Shown here in pieces: positions 1-8,453 of a stretch of 8,734 bases of DNA. The DNA comes from Alphaproteobacteria bacterium. GTDB lineage: Bacteria; Pseudomonadota; Alphaproteobacteria; RF32; CAG-239. Below the pieces are notes generated by a model. The model was not told the DNA's origin. It searched no databases and was given only the letters and a program-made list of their open reading frames with translations. How positions within the stretch are numbered: the stretch's first letter is position 1; every line of letters starts with the position of its first letter. The position numbers and the translations under genes were made by a program. The stretch covers positions 1 through 8,734 of the forward strand of contig DPKR01000063.1 in assembly GCA_003542415.1 (NCBI GenBank), written 5' to 3'.

Positions 1-118
1 GTGGAGAGCGTGCGTAGATAATAGGAAAAGTCCTTTTGAGTGAGACGAGTGTACATATTAGTACATGACCGAACTCAAAAGGACTTTTCTGTATTAGCTA
101 CCAGCTATACGCGTTTTT
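1..118. repeat. Structured palindromic element, copy A (left end cut by window)
   Basis: This is a non-coding imperfect palindrome and the first of three related copies (others at 6373-6477 and 6482-6608). Visible pairing: an inner perfect 17-bp stem 25-41/73-89; an apical 5-bp stem TGTAC/GTACA (50-54/61-65) with a 6-nt loop; a lower stem 15-23/92-100 with one mismatch; and boxes GGAGAGC (3-9) and GCTATAC (104-110) that pair imperfectly. An outer stem begins at 1-2/111-112 and continues off the window. The boxes, the GTGTAC..GTACAT apex and the TATACG right end recur in the other copies, while the inner stem sequence is unrelated. The right end overlaps the stop codon of the leftward phosphofructokinase gene, so the element would form part of that mRNA's 3' end. 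No U-tract directly follows the inner stem, so it is not a canonical terminator. The function is unknown. Confidence 0.75.
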
Positions 119-1196
119 AAATTTCGCCGATATACATGCCAAGCAGTTTCGCCGCCTTAACATACGAACTGTTCAAATCAACAGATTTTGTGCCGGCTGC
201 AACAACTTCTTCCAAAGGATAAGAGGTCACTTCACCATGGCTCAAACCAACCATCACATTTGTTTTGCCTTGAGCCAAAAGATCAATAGCTTTTGCCGCA
301 AAAACGGAAGCCATAATACGATCGCCGAAAACAGGGTGACCGGAGCGCTGAATATGTCCCAAACGTGTGCAACGAATTTGAAATCCTTTATATTTTTCAT
401 TCAAAAGATTGGTTAAATAATCACCGATACCCCCATGAACTTTCTCTCCAACCAAATTTTTGGCTGCAGACAAAACTTCGCCCGTTTCCGTTTTGATTCC
501 TTCCGAAACAACAATAATCGCATGTGTGCGTCCTGTAGCCTTAACAGCTTCAAGCTTATTTATAATACCGTCTAAAGTATAAGGAATTTCAGGGATCAAA
601 CAAACATCAGCATAGCCTGCAATAGCAGATTGCAAAGCTAAATGTCCGGCATCACGCCCCATCATCTCAATAATCATCGCACGATGGTGCGAACGCGCGG
701 TTGTATCAATGTTGTCAACGGCTTCCATGCAAACTTGGCAAGCCGTTTGAAAACCAATTGAAAAATCGGTAATCGGAGTGTCATTATCAATTGTTTTAGG
801 AAGCCCGATCATTTTAATACCGGCCTTATTGCAATAATATTTCAAAACATTCATACTGCCGTCACCCCCCAAAACAATAACGGCATCAAGACCAAGTTCG
901 CGAGCCCCTTCGCCGAACTTTTCGGCAATTTCATCCATCTGTTCGGGTTTAATACCTTTATTAAGCGAGCCTAAATAAGAACCGGCAGTTTTAGACCAAG
1001 GTGTATCCGAAAAATTTTGTAATGTTAAAATTTCGTATGAAAGCGGACGTTCGGTCAAACCCTCTGTGCCGTTATGGATGCCATAAACAGTCCAACCTTT
1101 TAAGGTTGCTGCTTTTACAACGCCCGAAATAGCAACATTGAGCCCCGAACAATCGCCACCGCTTGTTAAAATACCGATCTTTTTAATCTCACTCAT
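117..1196 (-). CDS. pfkA: 6-phosphofructokinase, probably ATP-dependent (mixed G104/K124 type)
   Basis: The product phosphorylates fructose 6-phosphate to fructose 1,6-bisphosphate in the cytosol (glycolysis). At 359 residues it has the usual single-domain PFK length. Visible motifs: phosphate-binding TSGGDCSGLN at 11-20, GGDGS at 110-114, catalytic PKTIDND at 133-139, MGRDAG at 179-184, LIPE at 200-203 and HIQRSG at 281-286. In E. coli PfkA numbering, GGDGS places Gly at 104 (typical of ATP enzymes; PPi enzymes have Asp), while PKTIDND places Lys at 124 (typical of PPi enzymes; E. coli has Gly). This mixed combination is known from ATP-using trypanosomal and some actinobacterial PFKs, so ATP use is inferred but not proven. 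The start is an ATG preceded by GGAG about 9 nt upstream on the minus strand. The gene is divergent from the DUF465 gene, and no convincing promoter was picked out. PPi-dependent activity is the main alternative. Confidence 0.95.
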   Translation of the reverse strand: MSEIKKIGILTSGGDCSGLNVAISGVVKAATLKGWTVYGIHNGTEGLTERPLSYEILTLQNFSDTPWSKTAGSYLGSLNKGIKPEQMDEIAEKFGEGARELGLDAVIVLGGDGSMNVLKYYCNKAGIKMIGLPKTIDNDTPITDFSIGFQTACQVCMEAVDNIDTTARSHHRAMIIEMMGRDAGHLALQSAIAGYADVCLIPEIPYTLDGIINKLEAVKATGRTHAIIVVSEGIKTETGEVLSAAKNLVGEKVHGGIGDYLTNLLNEKYKGFQIRCTRLGHIQRSGHPVFGDRIMASVFAAKAIDLLAQGKTNVMVGLSHGEVTSYPLEEVVAAGTKSVDLNSSYVKAAKLLGMYIGEI

Positions 1197-1225
1197 AAAA
1201 TAATCTCCGTTTTTAAATAAAGTTC

Positions 1226-1253
1226 TTGATTTTTTTTCAAATTAATGTATACT
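1226..1253 (+). promoter_or_regulatory. Candidate sigma70-type promoter for the DUF465 gene
   Basis: A -35 box TTGATT (1226-1231) is followed after 16 nt by a -10 box TATACT (1248-1253). The context AAAGTTCTTGA recurs exactly at the -35 box of the next promoter (1551-1561), which supports both. The predicted 5' leader is about 78 nt and rich in A and T runs. The divergent phosphofructokinase gene must have its own promoter in the same intergenic region. Confidence 0.5.
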
Positions 1254-1338
1254 TCATACAGATTTTCGAAATACATTTCTACAAAAAAATATGTTTTTTC
1301 GAAAGCTTTTTTTGTAACTTATAGGACGAAATAAACAA

Positions 1339-1548
1339 ATGCAATACGAAAATTTGAAAAAACTGCAGCTTCAGCTTTGCGAATTAAAGCTTGAGCAACG
1401 TCGTGTTCGCTCTGATATAAAAAGCTTAGTAAACAAAAATCAAACCATTGATTTTTATCAGGCTCAGAAGCTCAATGCTTTAAGAAACGGCTTATCTCAA
1501 AAGATAAAAAAAGTTGAAGCAGGTTTAACACCAAATATTATTGCTTAA
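1339..1548 (+). CDS. Small DUF465/YdcH-like coiled-coil protein
   Basis: A 69-residue, highly charged protein that is almost wholly helical by composition, with two predicted amphipathic helices (about 3-31 and 38-61). Helix 2 has the spacing LxxLKxxKLxLKxxIxxLE-like that is seen in DUF465/YdcH proteins, and the C-terminus LTPNIIA matches the TPDIIA-like tail common in alphaproteobacterial members (recalled family pattern, not a search result). The molecular function of the family is not established. The start is an ATG with AGGA (1323-1326) 12 nt upstream, slightly long spacing. It lies about 85 nt upstream of rpsU, which has its own promoter. It may be co-transcribed in part, because no clear terminator separates them except the inverted repeat at 1558-1594. 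It could also be an unrelated small coiled-coil protein. Confidence 0.6.
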   Translation: MQYENLKKLQLQLCELKLEQRRVRSDIKSLVNKNQTIDFYQAQKLNALRNGLSQKIKKVEAGLTPNIIA

Positions 1549-1557
1549 AAAAAGTTC

Positions 1558-1594
1558 TTGACGCGTTTAAATTGATATGCTAAAAACGCGTCAA
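1558..1594 (+). promoter_or_regulatory. rpsU promoter overlapped by an 11-bp perfect inverted repeat
   Basis: A -35 box TTGACG (1558-1563) is followed after 17 nt by a -10 box TAAAAA (1581-1586), preceded by an extended -10 TGC (1578-1580). The same bases form a perfect inverted repeat, TTGACGCGTTT (1558-1568) against AAACGCGTCAA (1584-1594), with a 15-nt spacer. The arms therefore cover the -35 box and overlap the -10 box. This could be an operator for a dimeric repressor. It could also be a weak stem-loop terminator for the upstream small gene, but only TTTT follows it. Confidence 0.5.
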
Positions 1595-1632
1595 TTTTAA
1601 CAATTAACAACCAAGAAAAGAGGTGAATTTAA

Positions 1633-1839
1633 GTGGTTCAAGTTACTGTTATCGGCAATGATGTCGCTCAGTCTTTAAAGATTTTGAAGAAGAAAATGCA
1701 ACGCGAAGGCATTTTCCGCGAAATGAAATTGCGTCGTTGTCATGAGAAAAACGCTGAAAAGAAGGCGCGCCGCAAAGCTGAAGCCATCCGTCGTGCACGC
1801 AAGCAACTCAGAAAACGCTTAGATACCGAAGGTTTCTAG
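1633..1839 (+). CDS. rpsU: 30S ribosomal protein bS21
   Basis: bS21 is a small-subunit protein bound near the 3' end of 16S rRNA that assists translation initiation. The 68-residue product is strongly basic and has the family pattern: short N-terminal strand, then [18 protein letters not shown] (18-35), a CHEKN segment at 36-40 and an Arg/Lys-rich C-terminal helix (43-63). The start codon is GTG, supported by the Shine-Dalgarno AGGTGA 7 nt upstream (1621-1626) and by alignment of the N-terminus MVQVTV with bS21 proteins. It has its own promoter (1558-1586) and a strong terminator just downstream, so it is likely monocistronic. Confidence 0.95.
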
Positions 1840-1851
1840 TCTTATTTTAAT

Positions 1852-1894
1852 CAAAAAAAAACACTCGTTTTATTCAAAAAACGGGTGTTTTTTT
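1852..1894 (+). terminator. Rho-independent terminator of rpsU
   Basis: The stem is AAAACACTCGTTTT (1858-1871) against AAAACGGGTGTTTT (1878-1891), with one G-U pair and a 6-nt loop, followed by a T run to 1894. The A run at 1853-1861 means it could also work for leftward transcription. It starts 13 nt after the rpsU stop codon. Confidence 0.85.
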
Positions 1895-1963
1895 AACTTT
1901 TTTTTATACCTTTTCATATATGTTACAGAATTATGAATATTTGCGGTTAAAATCAAGAAAAGC

Positions 1964-1992
1964 TGGAAAAAACAAAAAAAACATGATATTCT
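1964..1992 (+). promoter_or_regulatory. Candidate promoter of the pilin/adhesin operon
   Basis: TGGAAA (1964-1969), a 17-nt spacer, then TATTCT (1987-1992) preceded by an extended -10 TGA (1984-1986). The boxes match consensus at four of six positions each. Transcription would start near 1999, about 33 nt before the first gene. The surrounding 1895-2031 region is A/T-rich and otherwise shows nothing recognisable. Confidence 0.35.
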
Positions 1993-2031
1993 TTGAGTAT
2001 GAAATAAAACTTTTATGGATGGAATAAAGCG

Positions 2032-2859
2032 ATGTATTTATGGGTTGTATTAGCTACATTTATGGTCGCACTGCTTTCGTTCAATCTCTCAATTCGGCCG
2101 GATGCAGACAGGGCCTTTATGGAGGTCAAAGCCCAAACTGTGCTCACAAAATTCAGAGCTCAGCACTACGCTTTTGTGCATTTTATCGCATCTAAAAGGT
2201 TGACTTTAACACAGCAACATTCCGACAATCCGAAAAATACCGTTGATTACGTTTCAGGTGTCGGTTATCATGACGGGAAGATTGTGGGTACATTAAATGA
2301 TGCGATTCAAGCGCAAGATGTAGAAAAATACTTGCCTTATGGTTTTCAAACCGATCCGAATGTCTTTTCAAAAGTTTACTGCTTCAGGCCAACATCTTTT
2401 GATGCAGATGCAAATTATAGCATTGTTTGTGAAAATGACACAAACATCCCGACACAAGATTTGCGAAACACCTGTTGCGGTGCCCCAGGTATATTGGTTT
2501 TTGTTATATCATGGCAAGAAATGCCCTCACGTTGGATAAACCGAAACTCAAACATTCCTATGTCTGATATGATGTCTGTTATCACAAAAGCCGACGGTTA
2601 CGGCTCAAACATCGGCTACATCACAAATGTTGACACTGTGAAGGGGGCTGTTATCAGCGGCGGTATGTATCGCACACTGGGTGAAGAAAAAGACGAAAAC
2701 AACAATTTGACCGGAAAATATGTCCATGAAATCAAATATAAACCTGTTTTTAAGGTTTTGGAATCTGATAAAGATTTTGAAACATGCATGAAAGACAACG
2801 AGATTAAAAACCCTTGTTTGATTGCAATCAACCAAGTTTCTAACAGAGAGGAGAAATAA
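2032..2859 (+). CDS. Membrane-anchored pilin-like protein, partner of the downstream adhesin
   Basis: A 275-residue protein with an N-terminal hydrophobic segment (about 3-20) followed by a soluble domain, so probably inner-membrane anchored and facing the periplasm. It is related to the N-terminal domain of the next gene: both carry an N-terminal membrane helix, then a YLPYG motif (100-104 here, 102-106 there). A YLP(A/Y)G-like motif is also my recollection of PilV/PilS-type type IVb pilins. Unlike the neighbour, it has no Gly-X4-Glu prepilin peptidase site. There are six cysteines (117, 133, 148, 149, 252, 262), suggesting disulfides. The ATG at 2032 is the only good start: an in-frame stop lies shortly upstream, and the GGATGGA region gives a weak Shine-Dalgarno. 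It ends 1 nt before the adhesin start codon, so the two are probably translationally coupled. The specific function is not known. Confidence 0.6.
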   Translation: MYLWVVLATFMVALLSFNLSIRPDADRAFMEVKAQTVLTKFRAQHYAFVHFIASKRLTLTQQHSDNPKNTVDYVSGVGYHDGKIVGTLNDAIQAQDVEKYLPYGFQTDPNVFSKVYCFRPTSFDADANYSIVCENDTNIPTQDLRNTCCGAPGILVFVISWQEMPSRWINRNSNIPMSDMMSVITKADGYGSNIGYITNVDTVKGAVISGGMYRTLGEEKDENNNLTGKYVHEIKYKPVFKVLESDKDFETCMKDNEIKNPCLIAINQVSNREEK

Positions 2860-2860
2860 G

Positions 2861-5800
2861 ATGACAAAGCAAAATAAAATACTCAAAAAAGTGAACCAAA
2901 CTGGCTCCATGATGATCGAAGCCTTGGCGATGCTCACACTTATTTCGCTCGTCACCCCAACGCTTTACAAAAAGTCTGCCGAGCGCACAACCGAGTTGCA
3001 AGATATCAACACGGCAACGCATGTCAGAACGCTGATGAAGGCCGTTGATAACTACACCTCTGCAAATTACCAAGAGATTTTAGAGGATATGAAAAACAAA
3101 AATACAGATACGGCAATCCTCCGTTTAGAAAATGACGAATCAGATGGCAACCCGATCAATGCATATTTGCCTTACGGATATAAATTTGATGCCATTAAAA
3201 ACTTTGAAAAGCCGATTGTTGCGATTAAAAAGCAAGGGGGTGCTGATGCTTTAACATCTTTTGTTGTTTTGCCGAAAGCCGGAGATATCAATGATCTTCG
3301 TGCATCCAGAATAGCTTCTATGATCGGTGCAAACGGCGGTTATGTCGATAAAGATAAAAATGCGAAAGGTGTCGGCGGTATTTGGAATTTGGATACTAAG
3401 GACTTAAAAGAACTGCTGGGAGATTATGAAGACGAAGTTGTTGGCGGCTCCATTGTTGCTTCCTCTTCTGAAAACATCAACGAAGCAAGCCGTGCCGGAA
3501 CGGAAAATTCAAAATATTTACAACGCACCAAGTCTGAAAATAGTGATAATGAAAAATGGCGTAATACTATGATGACAGACTTATATATGGGCGGTGTGCC
3601 GGATATTTTGCAAGGCAACGCCGAGATTCCTTTAAGCAAAATCTTAGGTGTTGATCAGCTCATCATTGGTGATACAAAAACAAGCGCTGATTCAAACGAA
3701 ACAGCAGCAAGCTTGGTTGTTAAAGCACGCGATGGTCAGGAGGGCTCTGCTTTTATTGAAGGGAGTTTGAGAGCTTTGGGTGGTGATTTTGCCGTCTTTA
3801 AGAATGGTGAAAATCCTGAGCTCAACTTTGCAAACAACTTATTAAGAGCAACAAAAGAGCAATTTTCCGTTAATGTTATGGAATCAGACACCCCTGAATT
3901 AGAAATTACTAAAATCGATGAAGCCGGCGCAAGGGCAACATTTAATGTTGAAACAAAAATCAACGGCGCCCTCGAATCCACCGGCGATACAAGGCTTGCT
4001 TCTGGCGAGGATTCTAAATTTTATGTTGGAAAAGACGGAAAAGCCATTAAGGCAACGAGCGACATGGTCAGTCTTTTGAACGGAAATATGGTTTTAACAA
4101 ATGATGCATATGCCCCGCAAGGTGATGAGGAGTATGATAAATCAAAACTTTATGTAGGCACTCAAGCTGTTCAAATAGATGGTAATACAACGATTGGTGA
4201 AAGTACTGTCGAACCATTTGAAAATTTAAATCCGAAGTTAAACGTTCAAGGCAACACTTTTGTTTCAGGCAACGTCACAATCGGTTCTGAAGATAACGAA
4301 AACAATCGTCCTAAAATCGAAAATTTGAAGCCGAATCTTGATGTCAGGGGCAATGCTTTTGTTTCAAACACCCTTGAAGCCGGTGAAATTGATGCACACA
4401 AATTTGATGCTCTGGAGCTTCATGCCGGTGGAAAAGATTATGAAAAAGACAGTAGCGGAAATTATCAACGTTGGCTCACTGCCGACAAAGACGGCGTTAT
4501 TGTTCAAGATTTAGACCATTCTGATTATGATGATAGCTTACGCTTGGTTATTGATAAAGACCAATCTTCAATTTATGGTCCTTTGTGGAAAACTGAATCA
4601 AACACTGGAAGTGTTGTCGAGCGCAAAGACGAAATCCTCCTCGGACGTGGCGAAATCGACATTTCCGGCGCAAGAACTGTTAATGTTGATACACAAGCAC
4701 CGACAGGCGCTGTCAGTGTTCAAAACGGCGCAATTGAGGCCTACGGTCTTGCCAGTCGAACAGGTGGTGCCAACTATGTCACATCTGATACGGATCAATT
4801 CTTAGTCAAAAAAGGTGATACGAAACTCCTAAATATCGTATCCGGCCAAAATGGTTCAACACTAAACGGCGATGCAACAGCAGAAATTGACCCTGAAACA
4901 TTTCGCATATGGGCAAAAACGGCTGAAGGAGATGATGTTAATAACCGCATTTTTGAGGTTAATGCCGCAACGGGTGAAATAAACAAAAGCGGTGAGGTAT
5001 CGAGCGCTGCCAGTGTTTATATCAGACGGGGTGCAATTGAACTTGAAGGTTCGCCAAACACAAGCGGAACGAATTATTTAGCAGACGAAGGTGTCGGCTA
5101 CATTGAAGCTTCCCGCTTTGTGGCAAACAATCTCCAAGGTCACAGTGTTATAGAGCCGAGATATGCTAAAAAATCTTCAAACTATGACAGTGGTGCACAA
5201 ATTGACCGCTACATGGTCAACCCTGCATATACTTCTGTGATGCACGACATTAAGCTCACAACAAGAGGCGGTGCACGTTTGAGCGATATTTTACCTGACT
5301 TTATCAACAAAGGCATTTATATCGTCAATAATACATATAAAGACGGCATTAATTTTAACGATTTAAAGGTGCGCGTAGACGATGGCGTCATTAAAGCCGA
5401 TGGCGCTCAAGACATCTCCGAGGAAAACACATTTGATGGTTCAGATCAATGGGCATCGCCTTTCTTAGGTATGATTCCGGCACCGCAATGCCCTCCGGGA
5501 CACGCCAGAGTGATTACCATCACACCGGCAAGCTTCCAGATGGCGCAAACGGGTGAAATGGTGTTAAACTCAGATGGACGCTATTATGTGCAAGAAAACG
5601 AATCTCTTAACAAAATTCCTCAATATGGAACTGAGAGAAATGGTAACAACGCATCAAACATGATTTCTACACCGCGCTTGCAACATACAACATATAATAT
5701 GGGTGGCAACACACCAACATATTTAACGACCTATTATCTTGGTATGGGCGCAGATCAAGCACCTGTCGACAACCCGACGTTTGACTCGGACAACACACCG

Positions 5801-6301
5801 AAACCGCTTTATTTTCAACAAAGCACTTGGCTCAAGAGCAAGGTGATTGCCTATGGGCGAAGCGGCAAATGCTCTAACAGCGTTGCAGCAAACGGAGGAT
5901 GTGATGACTTCTTAGGTTGGGCAGCAATCATGGGCTTTATCTATCCCAAAAAACTATATGGCACGATTATTGACTCGCTAATCGGAAGCAACTCTATAGA
6001 AGCGGTTCAAGAAGATTCAAGCCTGCCAAAGCAATATGTTTACTGGAACGTGTTCCCTGTCAGAACCAGATCTATGGAAGCATATGCAACAGTCTACTGC
6101 TACTTTGACAGAACAAACCTCTTCGGTTCCGGCCACGATTCACATTATGTAGATCAATATGACCAATTACGTAGCTTCAGAGATGTTTATAAAAAGAAGG
6201 TCACTGATGGATGGAATGCATATAACGGAACAAGAACCAATAACGATGAATACATCAAACGGTTGAATGATCCTCAACTTAAATATGATGATCCATGGTA
6301 G
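2861..6301 (+). CDS. Large prepilin-type adhesin, PilV-like pilus tip protein
   Basis: A 1146-residue protein, probably secreted through a type IV pilus or type II-like route as a tip adhesin. The N-terminus is a class III prepilin leader: basic residues, cleavage expected after Gly15, mature SMMIE with Glu at +5 (Glu20), then a hydrophobic helix to about 33. A pilin-like domain with YLPYG (102-106) follows. The middle (about 280-850) is Gly/Asn/Asp-rich and repetitive, like a tail-fibre shaft: a 33-residue-spaced repeat (455-476 and 488-509; LNVQGNTFVSGNVTIG, LDVRGNAFVSN) and GAIE(A/L) units at 623 and 724. The C-terminal domain (about 870-1110) contains the only four cysteines (877, 1004, 1014, 1080) and ends near ATVYCYFD, recalling shufflon PilV C-terminal domains. 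The start is the ATG at 2861, with AGAGGAG just upstream; a longer TTG start at 2822 lies inside the preceding gene. No recombinase gene or sfx-type sites are seen. A phage-fibre-like surface protein is the alternative. Confidence 0.65.
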   Translation: MTKQNKILKKVNQTGSMMIEALAMLTLISLVTPTLYKKSAERTTELQDINTATHVRTLMKAVDNYTSANYQEILEDMKNKNTDTAILRLENDESDGNPINAYLPYGYKFDAIKNFEKPIVAIKKQGGADALTSFVVLPKAGDINDLRASRIASMIGANGGYVDKDKNAKGVGGIWNLDTKDLKELLGDYEDEVVGGSIVASSSENINEASRAGTENSKYLQRTKSENSDNEKWRNTMMTDLYMGGVPDILQGNAEIPLSKILGVDQLIIGDTKTSADSNETAASLVVKARDGQEGSAFIEGSLRALGGDFAVFKNGENPELNFANNLLRATKEQFSVNVMESDTPELEITKIDEAGARATFNVETKINGALESTGDTRLASGEDSKFYVGKDGKAIKATSDMVSLLNGNMVLTNDAYAPQGDEEYDKSKLYVGTQAVQIDGNTTIGESTVEPFENLNPKLNVQGNTFVSGNVTIGSEDNENNRPKIENLKPNLDVRGNAFVSNTLEAGEIDAHKFDALELHAGGKDYEKDSSGNYQRWLTADKDGVIVQDLDHSDYDDSLRLVIDKDQSSIYGPLWKTESNTGSVVERKDEILLGRGEIDISGARTVNVDTQAPTGAVSVQNGAIEAYGLASRTGGANYVTSDTDQFLVKKGDTKLLNIVSGQNGSTLNGDATAEIDPETFRIWAKTAEGDDVNNRIFEVNAATGEINKSGEVSSAASVYIRRGAIELEGSPNTSGTNYLADEGVGYIEASRFVANNLQGHSVIEPRYAKKSSNYDSGAQIDRYMVNPAYTSVMHDIKLTTRGGARLSDILPDFINKGIYIVNNTYKDGINFNDLKVRVDDGVIKADGAQDISEENTFDGSDQWASPFLGMIPAPQCPPGHARVITITPASFQMAQTGEMVLNSDGRYYVQENESLNKIPQYGTERNGNNASNMISTPRLQHTTYNMGGNTPTYLTTYYLGMGADQAPVDNPTFDSDNTPKPLYFQQSTWLKSKVIAYGRSGKCSNSVAANGGCDDFLGWAAIMGFIYPKKLYGTIIDSLIGSNSIEAVQEDSSLPKQYVYWNVFPVRTRSMEAYATVYCYFDRTNLFGSGHDSHYVDQYDQLRSFRDVYKKKVTDGWNAYNGTRTNNDEYIKRLNDPQLKYDDPW
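4223..4387 (+). repeat. Degenerate 99-bp-spaced direct repeat within the adhesin shaft
   Basis: Positions 4223-4288 and 4322-4387 encode two related 22-residue units 33 residues apart (NLNPKLNVQGNTFVSGN and NLKPNLDVRGNAFVSN). At DNA level the first bases (AAATTT..CCGAA) and a shared CTTTTGTTTCA remain similar. They look like duplicated beta-strand units of a fibrous shaft. Confidence 0.55.
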
Positions 6302-6316
6302 TCTGATAAATTCAAT

Positions 6317-6352
6317 AAAACCCCGCCGTCTTCACGCGGGGTTTTGTTTTTT
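6317..6352 (+). terminator. Rho-independent terminator of the adhesin operon
   Basis: A perfect 10-bp stem, AAAACCCCGC (6317-6326) against GCGGGGTTTT (6336-6345), with a 9-nt loop and a T-rich tail to 6352. It sits 15 nt after the adhesin stop codon and should end the rightward operon before the palindromic elements. Confidence 0.9.
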
Positions 6353-6372
6353 GAGCTATCGTCAAAATATAT

Positions 6373-6477
6373 AAAACTCGGAGAGCGTGCAGATACGAAG
6401 AAAGCTTGAATACGCAGTGTACACAAACAGTACATAAGTATTCAAGCTTTCAAATAGATGCTAGCTATACGAGTTTT
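6373..6477. repeat. Structured palindromic element, copy B
   Basis: The complete 105-bp copy of the element also seen at 1-118 and 6482-6608. Outer stem AAAACTCG (6373-6380) against CGAGTTTT (6470-6477); boxes GGAGAGC (6380-6386) and GCTATAC (6464-6470); lower helix 6389-6395/6455-6461 interrupted by a tandem G-A/A-G mismatch; inner perfect 14-bp stem 6400-6413/6438-6451; apical stem TGTAC/GTACA (6418-6422/6430-6434) with a 7-nt loop. A T run follows (6474-6481). It lies beyond the adhesin operon terminator, so it is unlikely to be needed for terminating that operon. No open reading frame or promoter is recognised in it. Confidence 0.8.
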
Positions 6478-6481
6478 TTTT

Positions 6482-6608
6482 CAAAAGTTTGGATAACGAG
6501 GCGAATAGAAGCAAAAAAAGAAAGCTGAAAATTTTAGTGTAGATAGAACTACATGAATTTTCAGCTTTTTGCATTTTTGCGATTAGTCGTCCGTTATACG
6601 AACTTTTG
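6482..6608. repeat. Structured palindromic element, copy C
   Basis: A 127-bp copy in direct orientation, starting 4 bp after copy B. Ten-pair outer stem 6482-6491/6599-6608 with one G-T pair; boxes GGATAAC (6491-6497) and GTTATAC (6593-6599); lower helix 6502-6508/6580-6586 with two G-A mismatches; an extra 7-bp stem 6511-6517/6574-6580, which is partly alternative to the lower helix; inner 13-bp stem 6521-6533/6556-6568; apical stem TGTAG/CTACA (6538-6542/6549-6553). It ends 1 nt from the bL9 stop codon, so its leftward transcript forms the 3' end of the ribosomal operon mRNA. Confidence 0.8.
6513..6568 (-). terminator. Probable terminator of the rpsF operon, formed by copy C
   Basis: Read leftward, the 13-bp stem AATTTTCAGCTTT-type (6521-6533/6556-6568) is followed by CTTTTTTT (6520-6513), the expected form of an intrinsic terminator about 45 nt after the bL9 stop codon. 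The loop is long (22 nt) but holds its own 5-bp stem. Copies A and B lack such a U tract next to the inner stem, so termination is probably not the general role of the element. Confidence 0.6.
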
Positions 6609-6609
6609 A

Positions 6610-7095
6610 CTATTCGGCGCTGTAAGCCTTCTCTTGCTTAGCCGCTTCATCTGAAGTTCTGGCAACATTGATTAAAATTGTTTGCGCAACTTCAGGGTGA
6701 AGGTTTAATTTGACTTGATAAATACCAAGGTCTTTAATCGGCTTTTCAAGATAAACCAAACGACGCTCAACATCGAAACCGGCTTCTTTGATGGCTGCTG
6801 CAATGTCACGGATTGTGACAGAACCGTAAAGCTGACCTGTTTCAGCAGCTTGACGAATAAGAACAGCCTTAAAGCCTTTCAAAGCTTCAGCTTTTGCTGT
6901 TGCAGCTTCTAACAATGCCTTGTTATGAGCTTCTAATTCAGCCTTTTGCTTTTCAAAATAAGCAACATTGGCTTCTGTTGCACGCAAAGCTTTGTTTTGC
7001 GGCAAGAGGTAGTTACGAGCATAACCGTTTTTAACAGTTACTTTATCGCCCATTTTACCTAATTTTTCGACATGTTCGAGAAGAATAACTTCCAT
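6610..7095 (-). CDS. rplI: 50S ribosomal protein bL9
   Basis: bL9 is a large-subunit protein at the base of the L1 stalk with two globular domains joined by a long helix. The 161-residue product shows the N-terminal signature GDKVTVKNGYARNYLLP (16-32), a connecting helix (about 41-75) and a C-terminal domain with GQLYGSVT (87-94), PIKDLGIYQVKLNLHPEV (119-136). A short charged tail extends past the usual end, making it slightly longer than typical 148-residue members. The ATG start has GGGGAGGG 7 nt upstream. It is the last gene of rpsF-rpsR-rplI, 15 nt after rpsR, and is followed by palindromic element C. Confidence 0.97.
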   Translation of the reverse strand: MEVILLEHVEKLGKMGDKVTVKNGYARNYLLPQNKALRATEANVAYFEKQKAELEAHNKALLEAATAKAEALKGFKAVLIRQAAETGQLYGSVTIRDIAAAIKEAGFDVERRLVYLEKPIKDLGIYQVKLNLHPEVAQTILINVARTSDEAAKQEKAYSAE

Positions 7096-7110
7096 ATTTT
7101 TACCCTCCCC

Positions 7111-7335
7111 TTAGTTTGCCACATAAGGCAACAAGCCGATATAACGCGCACGTTTGATTGCACGAGCGAGTTCTCTTTGCTTTTTAGCCGAAACAGATGT
7201 TATACGTGAAGGAATGATTTTGCCTTTTTCAGAAATGAAACGAGACAAAAGCTTGACATCCTTATAATCAATTCTCAAAGCATTTTCGCCGGAGAACGGA
7301 CAAGATTTTCTTTTAAAAAATGATTGTTTTGCCAT
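7111..7335 (-). CDS. rpsR: 30S ribosomal protein bS18
   Basis: bS18 is a small-subunit platform protein that forms a heterodimer with bS6. The 74-residue product has the CPF motif (12-14), [11 protein letters not shown] (23-33) and the conserved basic stretch [19 protein letters not shown] (38-56), with an [13 protein letters not shown] end. Only 2 nt separate it from the rpsF stop codon. Its Shine-Dalgarno AGGAG overlaps the last codons of rpsF, so translation is probably coupled. Confidence 0.97.
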
Positions 7336-7337
7336 GA

Positions 7338-7691
7338 TTATTCTCCTAAAGCTTCAGCTTCTTCAACAGCTTCAATATCTTCATCTGTTGACATTTCGCT
7401 GTTAAATTCATCAACTTTGACGGTCATATAACGAATAATATCTTCGTTCAAGCGCATCAAACGTTCATATTCTTGAATTGCCCCGGCAGGTGCAACAATG
7501 TTTAATAAAACATAGTGACCCTTGCGGTTCTTTTTAATGCGATAAGCAAGGTTTTTAAGGCCCCAATTATCGACTTTAACAACTTCGCCGCCTTGGTTTT
7601 TAATGACATCGCTCAAATTAGAGACAAGATCATTAACTTGTGAGGCGCCTAAGTCTTGACGTGCAATAAGCACGCTTTCATAGTTAGCCAT
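7338..7691 (-). CDS. rpsF: 30S ribosomal protein bS6
   Basis: bS6 is the small-subunit partner of bS18. The 117-residue product begins [14 protein letters not shown], with [20 protein letters not shown] (44-63) and [18 protein letters not shown] (76-93) matching the ferredoxin-like S6 fold. An acidic tail (about 97-117) follows; in some bacteria such tails are modified by RimK, which cannot be judged here. The ATG start has a strong AAGGAG 9 nt upstream. It is the first gene of the operon, behind a roughly 90-nt structured leader. Confidence 0.97.
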
Positions 7692-7835: not shown

Positions 7836-8405
7836 TTATTTGAAATGTATGTAAGCAATCAAATTATTGTATGTGCTTAATGTATCGCATTGCTCTTGAA
7901 TCTGTGAGAGGTTTTGTTTTACCGCATTTTTCATCAGCTCTTTATAACCTACCAGTAGATGTTCATCTTCATCGTTTTTTGCATAATTCAATGATAAAGA
8001 TATGATTTCCATTTCCTGCATCAGCCTTAAAAATGAAGGACAAATATATTTGATACTGCTTTCCGCTTGTTTGCCTTGTGCTCCACCCAAACGAACAAAC
8101 AATCCGTATTCGTTAATACCCCATTGGTTATTGTAAATATCATAAAATAAACGGCTTGAGGCTTTTGTCTTTATCAAATGCTCGGGAACAAAATGTTCTA
8201 TACTTAGCGGCGTAAATTGAGTTTCTGATTTTGTTAATTCGTATAATTTCCATATCATGAGAGTGACATCATCTTTCCATTGATTGAGCCTACTCTTTTC
8301 CATCGCCTTTGAATAGCCTGCAAGTGCGCCGGCTGATAAAACCCCGACAATCGCCAAAACACCTAACATTTCAACCATTGAGCGCCCATTTTGTCGTATT
8401 TTCAT
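7836..8405 (-). CDS. Prepilin / type II pseudopilin-like protein
   Basis: A 189-residue protein with a very short class III leader: MKIRQNG, cleavage expected after Gly7, mature RSMVE with Glu at +5 (Glu12), then the hydrophobic helix MLGVLAIVGVLSAGALAGY (13-31). The remaining soluble domain has two cysteines (122, 173), possibly a disulfide, and no motif that I recognise. It should be an inner-membrane pilin-like subunit processed by a prepilin peptidase that is not in this window. I chose the ATG at 8405 because GAGG lies 8 nt upstream and the leader then has normal form. The longer start at 8435 would lie inside the preceding terminator hairpin. No clear terminator follows, so some transcripts may run into the rpsF operon. 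Confidence 0.8.
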   Translation of the reverse strand: MKIRQNGRSMVEMLGVLAIVGVLSAGALAGYSKAMEKSRLNQWKDDVTLMIWKLYELTKSETQFTPLSIEHFVPEHLIKTKASSRLFYDIYNNQWGINEYGLFVRLGGAQGKQAESSIKYICPSFLRLMQEMEIISLSLNYAKNDEDEHLLVGYKELMKNAVKQNLSQIQEQCDTLSTYNNLIAYIHFK

Positions 8406-8418
8406 ATTTGTATCCTCA

Positions 8419-8453
8419 AAAAAATTAAAAGTCACTTTAGATAAAAAGTGACT
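8419..8453 (-). terminator. Intrinsic terminator just upstream of the pseudopilin gene
   Basis: A perfect 9-bp stem AGTCACTTT/AAAGTGACT (8430-8438/8445-8453) with a 6-nt loop, followed on the minus strand by TTTTAATTTTTTT. It ends next to the pilin Shine-Dalgarno (8417-8414), so read-through here would decide pilin expression unless the gene has another promoter, and none is visible in the short gap. Confidence 0.8.

Follow-up and report, generated by a model that had tools for sequence, protein, structure and literature searches.

Palindromic repeats at gene ends in an alphaproteobacterial family: likely ERIC-like mobile elements that dock on stop codons

Three long hairpins in a stretch of 8,734 bases raise the question of what kind of element they represent and why they lie where genes end. 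This stretch, here called the window, makes up one entire contig (G000:C86) in a draft genome of 1.07 Mb, and the hairpins (elements A, B, and C) are listed in Table 1. A preliminary description of the window had regarded them as copies of one structured element whose fold is under selection, distinct from simple terminators and from any named family. In this work, we found that they belong to a family of high-copy palindromic repeats that, in four genomes of the genus, sit mostly antisense on stop codons. These repeats are likely miniature mobile elements that resemble the enterobacterial repetitive intergenic consensus (ERIC) and that would insert at TA dinucleotides and serve as 3′-end hairpin and terminator. 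The family would then be a new branch of a known kind, namely, ERIC-like miniature inverted-repeat transposable elements (MITEs).

The three copies lie where they had been described and fold far beyond chance, with energies of -49.6 (A), -44.8 (B), and -57.1 (C) kcal/mol; for each element, none of 200 dinucleotide shuffles folded as well. They align with one another, and the covarying pairs reported earlier are present: pair 8/105 of A and 6385/6465 of B are G-C and 6496/6594 of C is A-T, outer pair 1/112 of A is G-C with T-A at 6378/6472 (B) and 6489/6601 (C), and the pair closing the apical stem is C-G in A and B and G-C in C. The outer stem of A is incomplete because the window is a whole contig, the end of which cuts this element. 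For a broader comparison, we aligned with MAFFT 31 of the 35 distinct pattern matches, omitting an unrelated hit, an echo, a doubtful hit, and one copy cut by a contig end. Among these 31 copies, 22 of the 32 consensus pairs have changed on both sides, and the double-changed cells number 218 compared with a shuffled mean of 75.5. Of the cells, 90.9% pair, compared with 71.4% when shuffled and at most 51.3% when slid, and the covariation score of 0.527 (0.200 in shuffles) was reached by none of 500 shuffles; because the consensus structure comes from this very alignment, it has an advantage over the slid versions, and relatedness among the copies is not preserved in the shuffles. Each element is one hairpin of about 115–140 nt, and three types can be told apart by eye: short (like B), type II (like A), and type III (like C). 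No variation is seen in TGTA and TACA, which belong to the apical arms, or in the 3′ box TATACG, and the inner stems vary freely among copies yet match within each copy. The elements form one family with covarying stems, and selection on the fold is the likelier reading of this covariation.

The simple pattern of TGTAS, a loop, STACA, and then NTATACG occurs at 15 places in the own genome, one of which is an other-strand echo, and at two places when reversed; of 20 genomes, 12 have a match. From the copies of relatives we built a covariance model (R1), which matches 10 of the 11 genomes of the genus, 96 of the 101 genomes of the family (16 of 16 genera), and 117 of the 125 genomes of the order, including the sole genome sampled from another family of that order. 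At the level of the class, R1 at 1e-4 matches 11 of 190 genomes, three of them from the family, and a copy with the same end boxes was found in another family (G181). Within the genus, the matches are uneven, with 76 in G005, 67 in G007, 51 in the own genome, eight in G008, one in G003, and none in G010; some of these are other-strand echoes of the palindrome, and high copy numbers may be lower bounds, as at most 150 (genus), 33 (family), 26 (order), or 17 (class) candidates were scored per genome. Further copies are abundant in the genome and its relatives, and their covariation is strong. For named families, the window contains no match to Rfam 15 at the gathering score, and in permissive scans of the relatives every listed match fell below this score and none with E < 0.4 overlapped an element. 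Likewise, no published description of this repeat family turned up in the titles and abstract openings of open-licence PMC papers. The expectation that no named family would fit holds for Rfam, but the kind to which these repeats likely belong, ERIC-like MITEs, does have a name.

To describe the placement of the elements, we used four genomes of the genus (the own genome, G004, G005, and G007), which have 115 elements with a score of at least 50; 15 other-strand echoes had been dropped from the list, and nine of the remaining 124 scored below 50. Genes in these counts, and in those of orthologs and viral contigs below, are uncurated open reading frames (ORFs) called by a script. An ORF is present on the 3′ side of 110 elements and is antisense in 106 of these 110, and on the 5′ side there are 52 sense and 47 antisense ORFs. 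An antisense stop codon lies between -25 and +12 nt from the 3′ end of the element in 85 of 115 cases, compared with a sense stop at the 5′ end in four. The distances peak at -4 (21 elements), -3 (18), and -16 (15). Stops at -3 or -4 overlap the A-tract with which the hairpin begins at its base, whereas a gene with its stop at -16 extends into the element and ends at the TAA within CGTATAA. In these four genomes, most elements are antisense to, and docked on the stop of, the gene on their 3′ side.

The elements turn over, because orthologous gene ends carry different types, an ordinary terminator, or no detected element. At 38 orthologous ends with an element in at least one genome, 19 typed pairs have the same type and 19 have different types; one member is untyped in a further 16 pairs, and in 33 pairs the model matches just one of the two genomes, a class that may hide degenerate elements or contig ends (scores of at least 43 were used). 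The end of pfkA has short types in G004 and G005 and type II in the own genome and G007. At the end of rplI, G005 has a short element with an outer stem nearly the same as that of type III in the own genome, and G008 has a plain hairpin terminator. Plain terminators were also found directly behind the stop, in place of the element, in two further orthologs; the wider ortholog scan behind these two cases includes false-positive element calls, and the 38-end count is the strict one. The possibility that the outer stem is a pre-existing terminator of the host is not supported, as the stem of the plain terminator differs from the outer stem of the element at two orthologous ends. Among four close relatives from another genus of the family (G057, G065, G071, and G078), one site is filled in one genome and empty in another with flanks that are 89–92% identical, and arrays appear to have grown. 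The empty site reads CAAACTTTTT, and the filled site reads CAAACTTTTT, an inverted copy, a core, and CAAACTTTTT again.

The termini were read in elements that score at least 60, in rows with anchors found; the upstream repeats considered below were counted in the same way. AAAA is present at the 5′ side in 63 of 76 and TTTT at the 3′ side in 59 of 76, with both in 55 of 76. In 47 of 76, the 5′ A-run has a T in front of it (background 0.31), and an A follows the 3′ T-run in 63 of 82. In the mechanism that we propose, the element would arrive as a small mobile element moved by a transposase acting in trans and would insert at TA dinucleotides. Once docked, its base (A-tract, short stem, and T-tract) may act as a Rho-independent terminator in the gene-sense transcript, and the element would likely replace the terminator of the gene on which it docks. 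By comparison with Yersinia, where ERICs lie at the 3′ ends of genes, ribosomes that stop at the docked stop codon might control the decay of the upstream message. The ERICs of Yersinia reportedly have a TA duplication and a preferred orientation at stops, as De Gregorio is said to have described in 2005.

Further families of alphaproteobacteria, as well as Sphingobium, Shinella, and plasmids of rhizobia, also carry the apical hairpin, GAG-YGTAC-loop-GTACR-TGA, often in many copies and often likewise in antisense orientation after a stop codon. The gene-sense form TCAYGTAC-N3-9-GTACRCT is present in 29 of 289 class genomes, 26 of them outside the family (reversed control: eight matches in seven genomes), with 161 exact copies in the 0.9-Mb genome G287 of another alphaproteobacterial family and 32 in G277. 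The copies in G287 (L353–L356) are embedded in different outer structures, and in most of 12 motif loci read, a long hairpin is centered on the motif. At the phylum level, GAGYGTAC-N3-9-GTACRTGAG matches 31 of 398 genomes, 22 of them outside the class and some with single matches (control: three matches). A stricter form occurs in 23 contigs of a viral collection, a few of which are near copies of each other; an antisense ORF stops 53–63 nt from the center of the apex in 17 of these 23, and sense stops number two. The exact family consensus has no match in the viral contigs. One of these loci, L374, is a cluster of head genes with terminase, portal, capsid, and connector domains, which may belong to a gene transfer agent. 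Of 72,556 named plasmid records, 28 from ten alphaproteobacterial genera contain relatives of the Sphingobium copy, and among 16 plasmid regions fetched, 14 were annotated and nine of these 14 have an antisense coding sequence that ends at or near the element. This copy has no blastn match in E. coli, and the alphaproteobacterial element of L364 has no match among the plasmids. The family is tied to this wider set, since R1 without filters matches five of eight loci (E 5e-8 to 2e-4); the remaining three (that of ERIC, a plasmid locus, and a further locus) gave either no match or just a fragment.

The core sequence of ERIC was found in 5,375 of 5,426 E. coli genomes. At one E. coli locus, seen in two strains, ERIC occupies the gap between ybhJ and ybhI and follows the ybhI stop directly, in antisense orientation; it has the same GAG/TGA frame around the apical stem, and its better fold is on the same strand as in the family elements. 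We also modeled the apical module with ERIC left out of the input (R2); of seven loci scored by this model, the ERIC core came out on top (E 5e-4 and 9e-4). Because R2 also scores a coding stretch in the same loci at 0.005, a kinship with ERIC is suggested but unproven. A bolder reading, which we hold tentatively and would not ourselves favor, is that of one ancient superfamily of structured mobile elements that extends from Alpha- to Gammaproteobacteria and of which ERIC would be the most familiar branch. The apical module would be read by a shared machinery that places the elements antisense on stops, and thousands of genes would end in a mobile, translation-sensitive 3′ hairpin.

Several results weigh against ERIC-like mobile elements that insert at TA. 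By the -25 to +12 rule, 30 of the 115 elements are undocked: one lies at -27, 20 have their nearest antisense stop 62–398 nt away (several of these are upstream members of tandem arrays), and nine have none within 600 nt. Docking also fails in six of the 23 viral-collection contigs and in five of the 14 annotated plasmid regions, for which the gene tables are incomplete. Of 68 elements, only 37 are TA-like at both ends, and the A at the 3′ end is often part of the stop codon. The empty and filled sites show a 10-bp direct repeat and an inverted copy and no bare TA duplication, and their difference could equally be a deletion between repeats. Arrays in close relatives appear to change by tandem duplication; therefore, not every new copy needs transposition. 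A target duplication upstream of the 5′ arm was rejected as a general feature, as in most elements shuffled arms find upstream matches as good as the best one to the real 3′ arm. Furthermore, R1 does not match ERIC up to an E-value of 1, and no transposase partner was found among the genomes: Y1_Tnp (PF01797) is present in 43 of 125 order genomes, and IS630-type transposases were not searched for. The Y1 transposase (also REP-associated tyrosine transposase, RAYT) was rejected as a general partner, being absent from G024, G038, G039, and G086, each of which has 19–26 matches.

Other explanations were weighed in light of which strand folds. On the element strand, G-U pairs outnumber A-C mismatches by 34 to 11 in the three outer helices (1–3; p = 8e-4) and by 23 to 0 in the apical helix. 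In 106 of 114 elements, the folding energy is also lower for this strand than for its complement. A symmetric count over all helices gives a weaker wobble excess (160 to 121; p = 0.023), and inner helix 6, where the alignment is least sure, is reversed (5 to 14). Based on the wobble pairs and the folding energy, structural constraint probably acts on the strand that is antisense to the docked gene. This may reflect a single-stranded DNA step in movement or an antisense RNA, and the data fit both alike. The same strand bias, together with the A-rich unpaired bases, would be expected of structured RNA genes, each producing from the element strand a small RNA that is antisense to the docked gene and ends in its own T-tract. 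However, no promoter consensus is visible upstream, the wobble excess over all helices is small, and there are many copies with turnover, such that we consider RNA genes unlikely. The high copy number, the turnover at gene 3′ ends, and the antisense position on stops are better explained by an ERIC-like mobile palindrome than by an independent RNA gene. These three features had not been foreseen in the preliminary description, which is supported in part: selection on the fold is the likelier reading, many further copies exist, and no named RNA family matches.

Covariation may also arise without selection if template switching at the hairpin (quasi-palindrome correction) keeps the palindromes perfect. 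The inner stems that differ between copies and match within a copy, and the rearranging arrays, are as this process predicts, but the loops and apex are conserved across families while the arms change, and a wobble bias toward one strand is not expected from a symmetric correction; this is quite unlikely in our view. Very improbable is that the elements are immobile intrinsic terminators, grown elaborate and alike by shared descent. The A- and T-tracts and the swaps with plain terminators between orthologs are in line with such an origin, but the boxes and apex are common to copies at unrelated genes, the matches range from 0 to 76 within one genus, and the same gene has different types across species. 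The earlier statement that these are not simple terminators stands for the whole element, which combines A/T-tracts in 55 of 76 and a place behind the stop with a short variable stem and a loop of ~100 nt; it does not extend to the base of the hairpin, which is terminator-like, and an ordinary terminator replaces the element at two orthologous ends. The integron attC sites are single-strand recombination sites that carry conserved core sites in the outer stem. Sites of this kind, used by a recombinase, would account for the position behind stops, the folding of the antisense strand, and the tandem arrays. However, the outer stem is variable here and the elements adjoin core genes (pfkA and rplI) rather than exchangeable cassettes, which makes this explanation hardly credible.

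In the window, B is positioned behind C, which is docked on rplI (Table 1). No Pfam match was found for the ORFs at 2032–2859 (+, 275 aa), 2861–6301 (+, 1,146 aa), and 7836–8435 (-, 199 aa), and the N-termini of the 1,146-aa and 199-aa ORFs look pilin-like by eye. The nearest named records by rplI are metagenome-assembled genomes labelled Alphaproteobacteria, proteobacterium, or Rhodospirillaceae, many from rumen or gut, and Azospirillum sp. CAG:239.

Table 1. Coordinates of the repeat elements, their conserved parts, and the genes of the window.
Feature	Position	Strand	Basis
Element A, type II, 5′ end lost at contig start; antisense to pfkA, docked on pfkA stop	1..118	+	R1 match 1-121, 99.1 bits; fold z -8.14
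Element B, short type I; upstream partner in tandem pair	6364..6481	+	R1 match 82.5 bits; fold z -8.21
Element C, type III; antisense to rplI, docked on rplI stop	6482..6610	+	R1 match 91.6 bits; fold z -10.53
Apical hairpin of A, GTGTAC-ATATTA-GTACAT	49..66	+	Sequence; apical helix pairs in 99.5% of alignment cells
Apical hairpin of B, GTGTAC-ACAAACA-GTACAT	6417..6435	+	Sequence, pattern match
Apical hairpin of C, GTGTAG-ATAGAA-CTACAT, closing pair swapped	6537..6554	+	Sequence, pattern match
3′ box TATACG of A	106..111	+	Invariant across 31 aligned copies
3′ box TATACG of B	6466..6471	+	Invariant across 31 aligned copies
3′ box TATACG of C	6595..6600	+	Invariant across 31 aligned copies
pfkA stop codon TAA, overlaps A/T-tract at base of A	117..119	-	ORF 117-1196; PF00365 E 2.5e-88
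rplI stop codon TAG, at base of C	6610..6612	-	ORF 6610-7095; Ribosomal_L9 domains
Ordinary terminator-like hairpin of ORF 2861-6301, just before B	6321..6351	+	Read from sequence
pfkA	117-1196	-	Pfam
rpsU	1633-1839	+	Pfam
rplI, rpsR, rpsF	6610-7691	-	Pfam

Some observations were made on individual loci. Certain elements of G065, G071, and G048 (L321 about 3900–4010, L337, and L325) have a structured-looking insert of ~100–110 nt inside the apex, which replaces part of the apical stem and has no Rfam match over its length. A second repeat of ~100 nt (..ATATGCA..GGAAGCAACGCG..GCGGTCAAGCTGGC..) precedes elements in G057, G065, and G071, sometimes in tandem (L321 about 3757–3860, 7391–7480, and 11155–11240; L335; L336). 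In the head-gene cluster L374, an element of the wider family lies at 1727–1857, where it follows the stop of the capsid gene in antisense orientation and precedes the connector gene; it has no blastn match among 50,697 phage records. Several contigs begin or end within an element (the window at 1, L305 at 1, L261 at 3006, L295 at 1, and L260 at 5441); therefore, these repeats may break assemblies and may explain some of the breaks in draft genomes.

These repeats shape the 3′ ends of genes across a bacterial family and, judging from the apical module, probably across many alphaproteobacterial families, and no Rfam model matches them. Docking on stops in one orientation, common to the E. coli ERIC copy, makes movement and a role at gene ends testable in the culturable Sphingobium and Shinella; in Sphingobium herbicidovorans, a docked copy follows dmpG.

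Several known repeat systems resemble the family in part. Repetitive extragenic palindromes (REPs), with GTAG- or CGTC-tagged forms, are likewise extragenic and palindromic. The CGTC type is enriched in alphaproteobacteria (PMC3733652), and in E. coli ribosomes stall at REPs that lie no more than 15 nt from a stop (PMC12306157). However, REPs have 20–40 bp and an unpaired tag, compared with about 115–140 nt here (such a tag was not specifically sought), and the GTAG type is tied to RAYT, whereas Y1_Tnp is missing from several of the high-copy genomes. CIR of Caulobacter and Brucella, an alphaproteobacterial intergenic repeat of ~110 bp, is similar in length, but it has two arms with exposed GANTC (PMC2229807); the family has one hairpin, with GANTC in 8 of 115 elements compared with 39.8 predicted by base composition, and CIR is set apart here by its description. 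By description only, Rickettsia palindromic elements are also alphaproteobacterial stem-loops (~150 bp), but they are noted for insertion inside genes (PMC10969869; PMC2229807). The RIME/ABC/Sm repeats, Br-REP1, and Br-REP2, also compared by description only, are rhizobial repeats in intergenic regions or 3′ untranslated regions (PMC2573895; PMC5082802), and the Ensifer and Rhizobium copies could belong to one of these sets.

ERIC remains the closest counterpart. It is a TA-ended miniature mobile element that can expose an RNase E site and destabilize upstream messages (PMC2229807; PMC10969869), and its orientation matters, being crucial for mRNA stability (PMC2229807). The ERIC apical stem is CTTAC/GTAAG compared with YGTAC/GTACR here, and the inner and outer stems of our elements vary from copy to copy. 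The termini of ERIC are TA with target duplication, compared with TA-like ends on both sides in part of our elements and one empty site with a direct repeat. ERIC is hosted by Enterobacteriaceae and Vibrionaceae (PMC10969869), in contrast to a family of which the named relatives are labelled Alphaproteobacteria or the like. Nevertheless, both are single long palindromes (127 bp in ERIC), both have an apex of GAG-stem-loop-stem-TGA, and both lie antisense behind stop codons, as seen in the 85 antisense versus four sense cases here and at the one E. coli ERIC locus.

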